Shown here: positions 9,463-60,339 of the stretch, in pieces | Layout of the letters: every line of letters begins with the position of its first letter | Position numbering within the stretch: the stretch's first letter is position 1 | Assembly (NCBI GenBank): GCA_027306785.1 | Contig: DAHUZB010000002.1 | Location: 1-60,339, forward strand | From: Vulcanimicrobiota bacterium | GTDB lineage: Bacteria; Vulcanimicrobiota; Vulcanimicrobiia; Vulcanimicrobiales; Vulcanimicrobiaceae | DNA length: 60,339 bases | Direction of reading: 5' to 3' | Translations under genes and position numbers: made by a program | The notes under the pieces: model-generated | Seen by the model: only the letters and a program-made list of their open reading frames with translations | Told to the model about the DNA's origin: nothing | Databases searched by the model: none

Positions 9463-10578
9463 ATGAAGTTCACCTGTAATACGAAGGACATCGCCGCGGC
9501 CGTGGGTGCCGCGAGCAAAGTGGTTAACGCGCACACGACGGTGCCGATTCTCTCGAACGTGCTGCTGCAGGCGGAGGACGGCAAGATTTCGGTCCGCGCG
9601 ACCGATCTCGAACTGACCCTCGAACACGCCTTCCCGGCGGAGATCGGCGAGAGCGGCTCGGTCACGGTTCCGGCCAAGCTCTTCTCGAGCTACCTCGGCA
9701 ACCTGCCCGCGGGCCTCCTGGAACTAACCGGCACGCCGACGCGCGCTTCGGTGAAGTGCGAACGCAGCAACTACGATTTCCACGCGCTGCCCGCCGATGA
9801 GTATCCGCCGCTCCCGGCCGCGACGGTCGGGTCGTCGTTCACCATCGGCGCCAAGCGCCTGCGCGAGGGGATCGAAGCCACGATCTTCGCCGCCTCCAAC
9901 GAAGAGGCGCGCGGCGCGGTGCTGATGGGCACGCTGCTCGAGATCGAGAACAACTCGCTCACGATGGTCGCGACCGACGGCTATCGGCTCGCCAAGTATC
10001 AGACGACGCTCGATGAGGGCATCAACGGCGTCGAGAAGTACATCGTGCCTTCGCGCGCGCTCGCCGAGGCGGCCCGCAATCTCGGCGGTGCCGAATCGAT
10101 TACGGTGCGTGCGCTCGGCGCACAGAGCAATCAGCTCCAGCTCACCTCCGGCGATACCACGATCACCGTGCGGCTGGTCGACGGGCAGTACCCGAACTAC
10201 GGCCAGGTGATTCCGGCCAAGTTCGATCGTTCGGTCACGGTGAACACGCAGGCGCTGATCGGCAGCCTTCGTCGCGCCGAACTCGTCGCGGGCGACCGCG
10301 CGAGCATGGTCAAGCTCGCGGTCTCGAATCAGACGCTCGTCGTCACCGCTTCGAGCGACGTCTCCGGCAACGCCTACGAAGAACTCGAGGTCGAGCAGAC
10401 CGGCGACGATCTCACGATCGCGTTCAACGCCCGCTACCTGGTCGAGATCCTCAATCACGTAAAGAGCGCGCAGACGGCGATCGAGTTCCTCGGCCCGCTC
10501 TCGCCCGCCGCGATCCGTCCGGTCGAAGCCCCCGAAGGCGGTCAGCAGCTCTACGTCCTCATGCCGCTGCGTCAGTAA
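9463..10578 (+). CDS. dnaN: DNA polymerase III subunit beta (sliding clamp)
   Basis: 371 residues. The N-terminus MKFTCNTKDIAAAVGAASKVV and the conserved TVPILSNVLLQA, YRLAKYQT, VDGQYPNYGQVIP and C-terminal YVLMPLRQ (MPMRL-type end) identify the clamp. It rings DNA and tethers polymerase III and many other factors. ATG 9463 is preferred; GTG at 9454 in the same frame gives a three-residue longer protein, and GGAAGAG lies between the two. A hairpin made of the dispersed repeat separates it from recF. Confidence 0.97.
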   Translation: MKFTCNTKDIAAAVGAASKVVNAHTTVPILSNVLLQAEDGKISVRATDLELTLEHAFPAEIGESGSVTVPAKLFSSYLGNLPAGLLELTGTPTRASVKCERSNYDFHALPADEYPPLPAATVGSSFTIGAKRLREGIEATIFAASNEEARGAVLMGTLLEIENNSLTMVATDGYRLAKYQTTLDEGINGVEKYIVPSRALAEAARNLGGAESITVRALGAQSNQLQLTSGDTTITVRLVDGQYPNYGQVIPAKFDRSVTVNTQALIGSLRRAELVAGDRASMVKLAVSNQTLVVTASSDVSGNAYEELEVEQTGDDLTIAFNARYLVEILNHVKSAQTAIEFLGPLSPAAIRPVEAPEGGQQLYVLMPLRQ

Positions 10579-56415: not shown

Positions 56416-57024
56416 ATGTCGTCATCCGGAAAAATTGCAGGGCCCGTGCAAGCCCTCATCAACGAGTTCACCAAACTCCCAACCGTGGGGCCGAAAACGG
56501 CAGCAAGGTTGGTTTTTCATTTACTCAACCGCCCGCGCCACGAAGCCCAAGCCCTCGCCGAAGCGATCCTCGGCGTCAAAGACAAGGTCCGCTTCTGCTC
56601 GACATGCTTCTCGCTGACGGAACTAGATCCGTGCGACATCTGCAGCGACGAGCGACGCGACACGCACTGCATCTGCGTGGTCGCTGAAGCAAAAGACATT
56701 TACGCGATCGAACGCTCCGATGCGTTCAATGGACGCTACCACGTTCTCGGTGGCCTGATCTCGCCAATGGATGGAATTGGAATTGAGCAGCTCCGCGTTA
56801 AAGAGCTCATTGCGCGTATCGGGGCCGAATGCCCGTCGGAAATCATCCTGGCAACAAATCCAAACGCGGAAGGCGAAGCAACAGCGCTTTACTTGTCGCG
56901 ATTGCTTCATTCATTGTCGGTGACGGTCACGCGTCTGGCGTATGGTCTCCCGATTGGCGCCGACTTGGACTATGCCGATGAAGTAACGCTCGCGAAAGCC
57001 GTTGAAGGGCGCCAAAGGCTATAA
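56416..57024 (+). CDS. recR: Recombination protein RecR
   Basis: 202 residues. RecR helps RecO/RecF load RecA. The N-terminal helix-hairpin-helix LPTVGPKTAARLVFHLL is followed by a Cys4 zinc finger (FCSTCFSLTELDPCDIC). A Toprim domain follows (CVVAEAKDIYAIERSDAFNG, LATNPNAEGEATALYLSRLL) and the C-terminal LAYGLPIGADLDYADEVTLA. From about 56640 onward the codon choice becomes visibly AT-richer than in dnaX. No Shine-Dalgarno is obvious; the repeat at 56379 lies just upstream. Confidence 0.94.
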   Translation: MSSSGKIAGPVQALINEFTKLPTVGPKTAARLVFHLLNRPRHEAQALAEAILGVKDKVRFCSTCFSLTELDPCDICSDERRDTHCICVVAEAKDIYAIERSDAFNGRYHVLGGLISPMDGIGIEQLRVKELIARIGAECPSEIILATNPNAEGEATALYLSRLLHSLSVTVTRLAYGLPIGADLDYADEVTLAKAVEGRQRL

Positions 57025-57655
57025 GAAGAGAAGGCGCTAGCGCATTCGGGTTCGATGCTACCAACTAAGAGAGTCGAGAGCCCCTGATTAGAACCAAAGT
57101 GTTCGACCGCATAGCGCTGAACGCTAATTGCTCGTTGGTGTTCGCACACAACGCCAGCAAAGCGGCTATGATGGGCAGCAACGGCGACGTGGCCCGGCAC
57201 GGCTCGCGGATGCGCCGCGCTCACTGACAACATGCGCCTCCAAATAAATCTCTCGGGATTGGATGCAAAGCTATTCAACGAGTACGAACTTGGGAAGAAC
57301 GACGTGAGCGCGCCGTTATCGCCAGAGCAGCTCTAAAATGGGACTGCCATCATCGCGGTCGTCTTCATTCGCGTAAAGGTCCATGCAAGGGCGATTCTTG
57401 CACAACACATAGTCGTACAACACATAGTCGTACAACATCGAGGCTGTAATCGACACAGATCTAAGATGCAGCACGTTTCCCGATAACACTAGCTTCCGTG
57501 CCGAGTTTGGGCGTTTCATGGGCCAAAAGTCCCGGTGCACGGTCTCGTCGCACTCGTGGCATGACGTGAGCCTAATTTGAAGAAGAGACAACGAACCTAA
57601 GGCGTTGGGCTGCGTCCCACACGGGCACCTTATATTTTATTGGGGTGGATACTGC
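57025..57655. other. AT-richer gap after recR, no confident gene
   Basis: 631 bases with visibly lower GC than the genes to the left. The longest candidate is a 91-codon TTG frame on the minus strand (57316-57591) with CHEC near its start and a repeat-derived YDYVLYDYVL. It has no recognised family and I do not call it. A 15-bp tandem repeat sits at 57402-57431. The gap probably holds the promoter of the unknown operon that follows; GGTGG at about 57641-57648 would be the ribosome-binding site for GTG 57656. No tRNA or attachment site was seen. Confidence 0.6.
57402..57431. repeat. 15-bp tandem repeat
   Basis: Two perfect tandem copies of ACAACACATAGTCGT, followed by a partial ACAACA. It lies within the gene-poor gap; a slippage origin is likely. 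Confidence 0.9.
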
Positions 57656-59254
57656 GTGTCAGTGGTGCATAGCGATTCTAAAAACGATATCGTTCTATAC
57701 ACGAAATGGAATGACGCTATATTCGATTTTTTCTTTAATCCTGCAAAGGCCGGACAAAGTGTACGACTTACGATGGATGATACTGCGCTAGCATCGATTG
57801 CGAGCTGGCTCGATCTTTCGGAAGGTGATTTTGTCCGCAGTACCTCTAACCTCATTCGCCCAAGTGCAACCGACGTATTTCGAACATTTGGCGAATTAAA
57901 CGATCCGAATCGCGGCGTTCCATTCACTGTCGGATTGCTCGCCGCGCAAGTGCTCGTCGCCTCTCGAATGCATACCGATGACGATGCATCCAAGGCAAAC
58001 TTCTGGTTACGCTTCAACCAGACATTACTTAGGAGCGACTCAAAGCAGCCGCCCCCGGCGCATCAAATGCTTGGAACTTTCTGGCGAGAACTCGAACAAA
58101 GGCTAAACGTCAAGGCCGGTGGACGCTTCGGCGTGCTTCGGATTCCGGAAGACCCGAACGAAGCGCCGCTTCAAGGCCGCGTCCACATCAATTATCCGCT
58201 CTCGCAGTGTCTTATTCGACAAGCCGACCGCGAAGATCTCGAAATGTTCTTTCGATCGAACGCGCGTGCGGCCGAATGTTCCACGTCGAGCCTCGTCGAA
58301 TTGCTGTCGGATAACGATTACGCATTTAGCAAGGCTTTCGTAAGCGTTCTATCTCAAGCCAGAGCGTTAAGCGGCATGCGGCACGAGCTTACACAAGCGA
58401 TCGACGAAATTCGAACCTCGGCTCGGCGTTCGGCAAGCATTAGCAAAACATCGCCGATTCCTGGCCGGCGACCAAAAGTTCGCCTGAAGATGCGCAAGGA
58501 GCGAGGCGAACTACGGATCGTGCTGCAGCGACTGCTGAGTGATTGGGAAGATATCGCTACGCTTTCCGCGGACGAGTGGCGAGACGGCTGGTTTGAGGAC
58601 GAAGAATTGGCGGGCTTCTGGAGTGGAGCAGATCGATCTGTGTTCGTCAGCACGGACGACGGCTACGTTACGTCATCGAAGGTCCCCGCAGATACTACGA
58701 CGTTACGGTTGCTATTTGAAGCGGACAACGAAGATCTTTCAGGGCAGCTTTCCGCGTTCACGTGGACTGAGGTAACGCTTGGGGAAAGTCTTGATGGACT
58801 TCGATGCCTCGAGTTTGCTATCGCGTGCTCGGAAAACGAAAACCTAACGCATGTGCTGGCACTTAGGGCAGATGCCCGAACCACGATCCGGATTCTTGGA
58901 GGACTAAAGTTCGAACGTAACCGGTACGTCTACGGCGCAGCCCCCATCATTCGGATCGAAAATGCAAACGGCGCGTCCGTTATTGTGAGCGGGAGAATGT
59001 GTCCCACTACGGATAGCGGTGACATCGCCGCCGGATACCTGCCAATGGAACCCGGTGTCATCGACGTCGAGTGCGGAGATGCCTTCGCTCAATATGAAAT
59101 CGTCGATCTTTCCAGGGAGGCTGACAGCAGCGATGGCGGCTGCGTGGGGTATCGCGTATCATTGAGCCCTCCGATGATGACGTCCGTAGACCTTACCGAG
59201 GACCGAAGCACAGGAGAGGCCATCCGCACTCTCGTCGGAGCTGACCTCCTGTGA
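57656..59254 (+). CDS. Unrecognised protein, first gene of an AT-richer operon
   Basis: 532 residues from GTG 57656, with GGTGGA about 8 bases upstream; a frame-longer TTG start at 57605 lacks support. I recognise no family. The N-terminal two fifths look helical, with GVPFTVGLLAAQVLVASRMH and RFGVLRIPEDPNEAPLQGRV then PLSQCLIRQADREDLEMFF. The middle has a basic segment (SIPGRRPKVRLKMRKERGEL style), possibly for nucleic acid. The C-terminal roughly 230 residues appear beta-rich. No catalytic motif, signal peptide or membrane segment is visible. The next gene starts within its stop (GTGA). A defence or mobile-island role is an inference from context only. Confidence 0.6.
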   Translation: MSVVHSDSKNDIVLYTKWNDAIFDFFFNPAKAGQSVRLTMDDTALASIASWLDLSEGDFVRSTSNLIRPSATDVFRTFGELNDPNRGVPFTVGLLAAQVLVASRMHTDDDASKANFWLRFNQTLLRSDSKQPPPAHQMLGTFWRELEQRLNVKAGGRFGVLRIPEDPNEAPLQGRVHINYPLSQCLIRQADREDLEMFFRSNARAAECSTSSLVELLSDNDYAFSKAFVSVLSQARALSGMRHELTQAIDEIRTSARRSASISKTSPIPGRRPKVRLKMRKERGELRIVLQRLLSDWEDIATLSADEWRDGWFEDEELAGFWSGADRSVFVSTDDGYVTSSKVPADTTTLRLLFEADNEDLSGQLSAFTWTEVTLGESLDGLRCLEFAIACSENENLTHVLALRADARTTIRILGGLKFERNRYVYGAAPIIRIENANGASVIVSGRMCPTTDSGDIAAGYLPMEPGVIDVECGDAFAQYEIVDLSREADSSDGGCVGYRVSLSPPMMTSVDLTEDRSTGEAIRTLVGADLL

Positions 59255-60183
59255 GCGAAGCTATCCCCCTTGAACCGCTGCTTTACTACATGCACGAGCG
59301 AAGCAACGGCACGTGGAGTCAATTTGCAGATGCTACGCTTTCGCTCGGGATCGAGAAGAACCATGCGCTGTACCTGGCTCAATTGTTGTCAGAGAATGCG
59401 CTTGTGGAATTCCTATGGGACGATGACAAGCGTTGGTCGGTGACGTCCTCTGTCGCCGTCGTATCGAACCGCAGCGGCGGAAGTATCAGCCTTTGGGGCG
59501 GAACGCATCGCAGCGCCGACGCGCTGCGTGAGTCGGGGCTGGGGTGCGAAGTCGGAACGCGGCGCATCTTCATGGGAGACAGGCTATTCACTTACAGGCA
59601 CGGGATTCGGCTCCAAGCTCAAAAGTGGGAAGCGATCAGACAATACGTCGACGTCGTCAACGGTAAGGATATCCTTAACGCGTTGCCTGCGATTGAAAGG
59701 CTATTGTCAAAGTACCCAGAAGCCGAAATACCTGGCATAAACGCCGATGTGCGCCGCTGGAGTTTCGAACGAAGCTCGAAATGGTGGAAGAGCCCCGTCG
59801 ATTTTGCGCCTGTCGAAAATTCATTGTGGCGCGTCGGCGCCCGTCGCTGGCGGTTCTTCCGACGTGGAAAGCTTCGGAGCGTCCCCGACTGGCTTGGCAA
59901 ATGGCTCGTATACGCTGCGTCGCATCGCGGCGGATATGTCGCTCAATACATTCATCAAGGCGGCTATTTCACCTTACCGTTCGGCAGTCTAATACCGACG
60001 CCGTATCTTCGTGCTGTTTTACTCAACGAGGGTGTCGCAGCACCGGTTGATGCTGCACGCGTCGTGGATCGCGCGAGATCACGCGGCTATTCAAACGTGG
60101 ACGAGCAAGTCGCGACAACAATTTGCGAAAAGCTCGGTATCGAAATGGACGTCAGAAAAGAAAGAAAAAAGGAGCAAGCGTAA
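59251..60183 (+). CDS. Unrecognised protein with possible winged-helix N-terminus
   Basis: 310 residues from GTG 59251, overlapping the upstream stop by 4 bp. The first 75 residues read like a winged helix: WSQFADATLSLGIEKNHALY, LAQLLSENALVEFLWDDDKR, WSVTSSVAVV. Then comes ISLWGGTHRSADALRESGLG, and a repeated beta/turn pattern with Trp/Arg-rich strands (SLWRVGARRWRFFRRGKLRS). It ends in a basic tail RKERKKEQA. No recognised enzyme motif. Coupled translation implies it works with the gene before it; a helicase or nuclease partner might have been the interrupted third gene. Confidence 0.6.
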   Translation: MSEAIPLEPLLYYMHERSNGTWSQFADATLSLGIEKNHALYLAQLLSENALVEFLWDDDKRWSVTSSVAVVSNRSGGSISLWGGTHRSADALRESGLGCEVGTRRIFMGDRLFTYRHGIRLQAQKWEAIRQYVDVVNGKDILNALPAIERLLSKYPEAEIPGINADVRRWSFERSSKWWKSPVDFAPVENSLWRVGARRWRFFRRGKLRSVPDWLGKWLVYAASHRGGYVAQYIHQGGYFTLPFGSLIPTPYLRAVLLNEGVAAPVDAARVVDRARSRGYSNVDEQVATTICEKLGIEMDVRKERKKEQA

Positions 60184-60204
60184 ATGCGGGTGTCGGCAAG
60201 CGGT
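60184..60204 (+). pseudogene. Third gene of the island operon, cut after about seven codons by an IS
   Basis: ATG 60184 lies directly after the previous stop, with AAAGGAG about 10 bases upstream, as expected for a third operon gene. It codes only MRVSASG before the TGGCCCC sequence of the insertion element begins. The reading frame then runs through IS DNA to a stop about 27 codons later. The rest of the gene, if present, is on the other side of the IS, outside the window. Confidence 0.5.
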
Positions 60205-60339
60205 GGCCCCGTTTACCTGGACAGAAATACTCGGCCGATAAGTGGCCCCTTGCGAGTTATGCTGCCTGAAGTTCAGGCCGTTGGTTGAAATACGCGGCGT
60301 CGGGCGTTTTGCCCCCGAGGCTTGAGTGCGGGCGGACGC
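60203..60339 (-). mobile_element. End of an IS3-family insertion sequence
   Basis: A transposase 3' end on the minus strand is followed by a terminal sequence that on the plus strand begins near TGGCCCCGTTTACCTGGACA (60203-60222). The start TG and the presence of an internal second GTGGCCCC copy (about 60241) are consistent with an IS3-type terminal repeat. The exact edge is a guess, because the other end is outside the window. Confidence 0.75.
60257..60339 (-). CDS. IS3-family transposase (OrfB), C-terminal end only
   Basis: 27 codons before a TAA at 60257-60259. The visible end reads VRPHSSLGGKTPDAAYFNQR PELQAA (split here). The RPHSSLGGKTP pattern is the characteristic end of IS3-family rve-type integrase-core transposases. 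The catalytic DDE core and OrfA lie outside the window. It is oriented against the unknown operon. Confidence 0.93.
   Translation of the reverse strand, partial: VRPHSSLGGKTPDAAYFNQRPELQAA

Follow-up and report, generated by a model that had tools for sequence, protein, structure and literature searches.

The stretch of DNA analysed here (60,339 nt; the window) makes up the entire contig C5 of a draft genome of 3.14 Mb (35 contigs, 96% complete), and its last position, 60339, is also the end of the contig. Among the named genomes of the public collection, the one nearest to the source is a Candidatus Eremiobacterota MAG. Downstream of recR (56416..57024, + strand) lies an island with a GC content of 0.545, compared to 0.664 in the remaining window, and the drop starts past the recR stop codon at 57024. 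The island carries two open reading frames on the plus strand, both with GTG starts: druF (57656..59254), encoding a protein of 532 residues, and druL (59251..60183), encoding a protein of 310 residues, which overlap by 4 bp (GTGA). The ATG of a third gene, druE, stands at 60184, where it abuts the TAA of druL and has an AAAGGAG motif nine bases upstream (about 60168-60174). Only the first codons of druE, ATG CGG GTG TCG (MRVS; 60184..60198, + strand), are present before the sequence passes into the end of an IS3-type element (60199..60339, - strand). The genes are arranged druF-druL-druE, are translationally coupled, and are broken in druE. A preliminary description of this region had reported the two overlapping frames, the third start with its AAAGGAG site, the IS3-type end, and a shift in composition relative to the recombination genes to the left, all of which were confirmed; its statement that the two proteins match no family did not hold, because PADLOC profiles identify them as the Druantia type IV components DruF and DruL.

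Druantia type IV was defined by PADLOC as DruE, DruF and DruL without DruM and DruG (PMC8565338). The 532-aa protein was matched by the PADLOC DruF4 profile (E 7.7e-22, residues 15-203) and by the DruF2 profile (E 1.9e-18), and it is 46% identical to the DruF of G113, a genome of the same family as the source genome. The window thus holds the DruF homologue that type IV requires, recognised by DruF4 over residues 15-203 only. It is a short form: at 532 aa it is smaller than the 676-703-aa PADLOC models, and DruF profile coverage is limited to the N-terminal ~200-230 residues, with the remaining ~300 unmatched. No relative of DruF was found in the viral and phage collections.

The 310-aa protein was matched by the PADLOC DruL4 profile weakly (E 2.2e-5) and over nearly its whole length (residues 11-301, profile positions 7-307 of 309), and a second match fell in the C-terminal portion of the DruF2 model (~1,011 aa). 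It is 50% identical to the DruL of G113, which itself matches DruL4 (E 1.3e-8); the DruL of G068, another genome of the same family, gave no match to the PADLOC DruL profile. A DruL homologue therefore adjoins DruF, as type IV requires, and the same 4-bp overlap of the two genes is found in G113. Comparison of DruF and DruL with their relatives gave pN values of 0.35-0.38 against near-saturated pS values of 0.72-0.76, pointing to constraint at the protein level. The order of the two genes is kept in relatives, whose proteins are 46-50% identical to those of the window and under constraint, which argues that the observed arrangement is more than chance. Sequence searches of the PDB with DruF or DruL returned nothing credible, and for DruL, read in the preliminary description as a candidate winged-helix protein, structure predictions were too poor to use (pLDDT 35 from a single sequence and 42 from three sequences), with the N-terminal 50 residues predicted as three helices in these low-confidence models. 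Neither protein was matched in Pfam, NCBIfam or PHROGs, which would suit the preliminary view of a new, unrelated winged-helix operon serving defence or belonging to a mobile island. That view is now extremely improbable, since Druantia-specific profiles match both proteins and the third gene of the relatives is the Druantia helicase; the gene order and the DruE matches refute it. A housekeeping or metabolic family, the other reading considered, fits nothing that was found. The proposal of a candidate anti-phage operon was borne out, in the form of a Druantia type IV assignment resting on the profiles and on the gene order of the relatives.

In G113, the gene after druF and druL encodes DruE (L010:3456; at least 1,316 aa, cut by the contig end), which starts MRVSRLADD and matches the DruE4 profile (E=0). 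In G068, they are followed by a DruE of 1,782 aa (L011:9657), which starts MRVSSFIEG and also matches DruE4 (E=0). The four druE codons of the window, all that it holds of the type IV helicase, are protein-identical to both starts, and the DNA identity with G113 extends through ATGCGGGTGTCG and ends at the IS. A complete druF-druL-druE operon is present in G097, a genome of the same genus as the source, beside a C5-methyltransferase gene (DruF4, E 1e-141; DruL4, E 3e-61; DruE, 1,921 aa), and its DruF and DruL are longer than those of the window and more divergent from them. The same order occurs on an Aphanizomenonaceae plasmid, by profile matches, and on an Oscillatoria plasmid, by annotation and alignment. 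In the relatives DruE is a large SF2 helicase with DEAD and Helicase_C domains, and the YprA structure 6znp is among its PDB matches. The preliminary description had suspected that the third gene was cut by the IS, that it might encode a helicase and that it would continue in relatives. The cut is confirmed, DruE follows druL in G113, G068 and G097, and the gene continues as druE in G113 and G068; the estimate of about seven retained codons was too high, as about 4-5 remain. It should be considered that DruF and DruL might form a two-gene module that acts without DruE or with another cellular helicase, in keeping with two frames that remain intact and show protein-level conservation. A recent insertion would also leave the frames intact for a while, however, and DruE or an annotated DEAD/DEAH helicase lies directly 3' of DruL in all five related F-L loci examined, making such a module very improbable.

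The terminal 141 bp of the window, from 60199 onward, recur unchanged at the end of contig C2, which indicates that the assembly stopped within a repeat at this contig break. The minus-strand translation of this sequence, VRPHSSLGGKTPDAAYFNQRPELQAA*, reads as the C-terminus of an IS3-type transposase, and the two copies carry the C-terminal motif with a weak match to rve_3 (E 0.006). No copy of the IS was found in the plasmids searched, and one partial, decayed relative is present in G068 (82% over 71 bp). At the end of C2 (L006 9454-11607), the neighbours of the IS copy are two paralogous genes for proteins of ~190-200 aa and a stretch that partially duplicates a DEAD-box helicase gene at its 3' end.

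Across the 35 contigs of the 96%-complete source genome, no DruE was found with DUF1998/MZB, with the DruE of G113, or with the DruE4 profile. The MZB search is a weak test because the DruE proteins of the relatives also have no MZB match in Pfam; the DruE4 profile, in the same search run, detected DruE in G113, G068 and G097. The druE gene has either been lost or lies on an unbinned contig, and given the draft status of the genome it could sit there intact or broken. Under a related explanation, some members of the population keep the whole operon, such that the IS junction represents a minority or an assembly path, a full druE went unbinned, and the defence still works. This explanation would accommodate the terminal 141 bp shared by C5 and C2, typical of an assembly stop at k-mer size, as well as the draft status of the genome (96% completeness) and the druF and druL frames, which are still intact. 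Against it, C5 runs without a gap from druL into the IS, and no piece of DruE, however short, was found in the genome with a profile that detects DruE in relatives. We regard this explanation as unlikely.

The DruF and DruL profile matches, the F-L-E order of the relatives and the MRVS stub together indicate that the operon is, very probably, a Druantia type IV druF-druL-druE operon beside recR that was cut at druE codon 4-5 by an IS3-type element. The locus belongs to a published kind, of which it is a divergent and truncated member. It shares with type IV the adjacent DruF and DruL homologues in the order F-L and the druE start that follows, but differs in its short DruF, of 532 aa, whose C-terminal half is unmatched, and in the truncation of druE. 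With type II (DruM, DruF, DruG, DruE) it shares the N-terminal region of DruF, and its DruL is similar to the C-terminal section of the DruF2 model, but DruL is a separate gene; no DruM is present in the window and no DruG was identified there, and the interval between recR and druF contains no methyltransferase gene or other intact gene. With type III (DruH-DruE), the DruE helicase core is common (DruE3 profile against the G113 DruE, E 3e-89), but the partners differ, and neither window protein matches a DruH model. In G068, a DruM-like C5-methyltransferase (E 5.6e-104) and a Vsr endonuclease are encoded upstream of druF-druL-druE (L011 4265-5802), a mix of types II and IV. A Druantia type I-like locus with matches to DruB, DruC, DruD and DruE is present in G081, of the same family (L054 4666-14669).

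Three features of these loci are mildly new: the short DruF with its unmatched C-terminal half, in three Eremiobacterota-type loci, the combination in G068 of DruM and Vsr with druFLE, and the match of DruL to the C-terminus of the long DruF2. Taken together, they suggest that types II and IV intergrade and that their labels divide what is a continuum. The loci of the window, G113 and G068 might even constitute a distinct Druantia subtype, marked by a short DruF (~530 aa) whose C-terminal half is different, that bridges types II and IV through the DruM and Vsr of G068 and the match of DruL to the C-terminal section of long DruF2; we regard this as less likely than not.

The chromosomal setting was examined by comparing the sequence downstream of recR in the window (57024-57067), L028 (4955-6357) and L029 (~9900-9990). 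The recR gene is 88% identical in both same-genus genomes, G097 and G098, and the sequence 3' of it differs among the window, G097 and G098. The 26-bp 3' end of the tRNA-Glu of G097 recurs as an exact copy after recR in that genome, ahead of a tyrosine integrase gene; in G098, recR is followed by a more divergent remnant, a helicase gene with PDC-S41/AbiO-like matches and other genes. In the window, comparison with G097 revealed a shortened, attachment-like remnant of the tRNA-Glu 3' end (57047..57067, + strand), 24 bp past the recR stop. The differing content indicates a variable insertion spot in the genus. The mobile-island setting suggested in the preliminary description is borne out. The island shares its attachment-like remnant with the tRNA-Glu integrative element of the same genus, but it has no adjacent integrase or transfer genes. 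Between this site and druF lies what is left of a Cas4-like PD-(D/E)XK nuclease gene, now a pseudogene (57304..57453, - strand; 62% over 50 aa by tblastn, E 4e-15), ~50 codons with an in-frame stop. In G113, the corresponding Cas4-like gene, which is open to the contig edge and matches the PDDEXK_1 and Cas4 models, lies divergently upstream of druF. The broken piece in the window indicates that decay of the island is not confined to druE but has also affected its recR side.

DruE is a YprA-like SF2 helicase (PMC12458937), and in type III it is the helicase-nuclease effector, with DruH as the likely sensor (PMC13192584). The DruE proteins of types I and II are described as carrying inactivated Vsr domains (PMC12458937); another source may therefore provide the nuclease step of type IV. 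We propose that druF-druL-druE entered the chromosome at the variable site next to recR and that an IS3-type element then cut druE after its first codons. In an intact system, DruE, a YprA-like SF2 helicase of ~1,800-1,900 residues, would be the DNA-processing effector, and DruF and DruL, translated first and coupled to DruE, would form a recognition or regulatory module that recognises infection and activates DruE or loads it on phage DNA. By analogy with the type III literature and from the gene order, this division of labour, in which DruF and DruL recognise and DruE acts, is somewhat favoured. As the helicase is missing from the assembled sequence, the system has probably lost its function in this genome, or is at any rate incomplete, and the operon without DruE should give no phage protection. 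The locus would thus be a case of probable defence-system loss through IS insertion into the helicase gene. With this assignment, a formerly unknown operon is placed among Druantia systems, and Druantia type IV is placed in Candidatus Eremiobacterota; the complete loci of G068 and G097 are the right material for studying the function of DruF and DruL.

Two further observations concern mobile or repeated sequence in the source genome. On contig C29 (160001-190000; L069/L070), a ~26-kb element lies between a tRNA-Glu gene and an attachment copy, and it carries integrase and transfer-like genes together with a defence cargo of restriction-modification-like genes, AbiEii (E 6e-95) and an RT-Toprim protein of retron type (E 8e-203). 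In the window, the short dispersed repeat CCCTTCGACrnGCTCAGGGTGAC occurs at nine sites between 10593 and 56403, where none is expected by chance, and it is also present in L029; several of the repeats lie inside the dnaX coding sequence, where they are read as SVTLSSSKG-like peptides.
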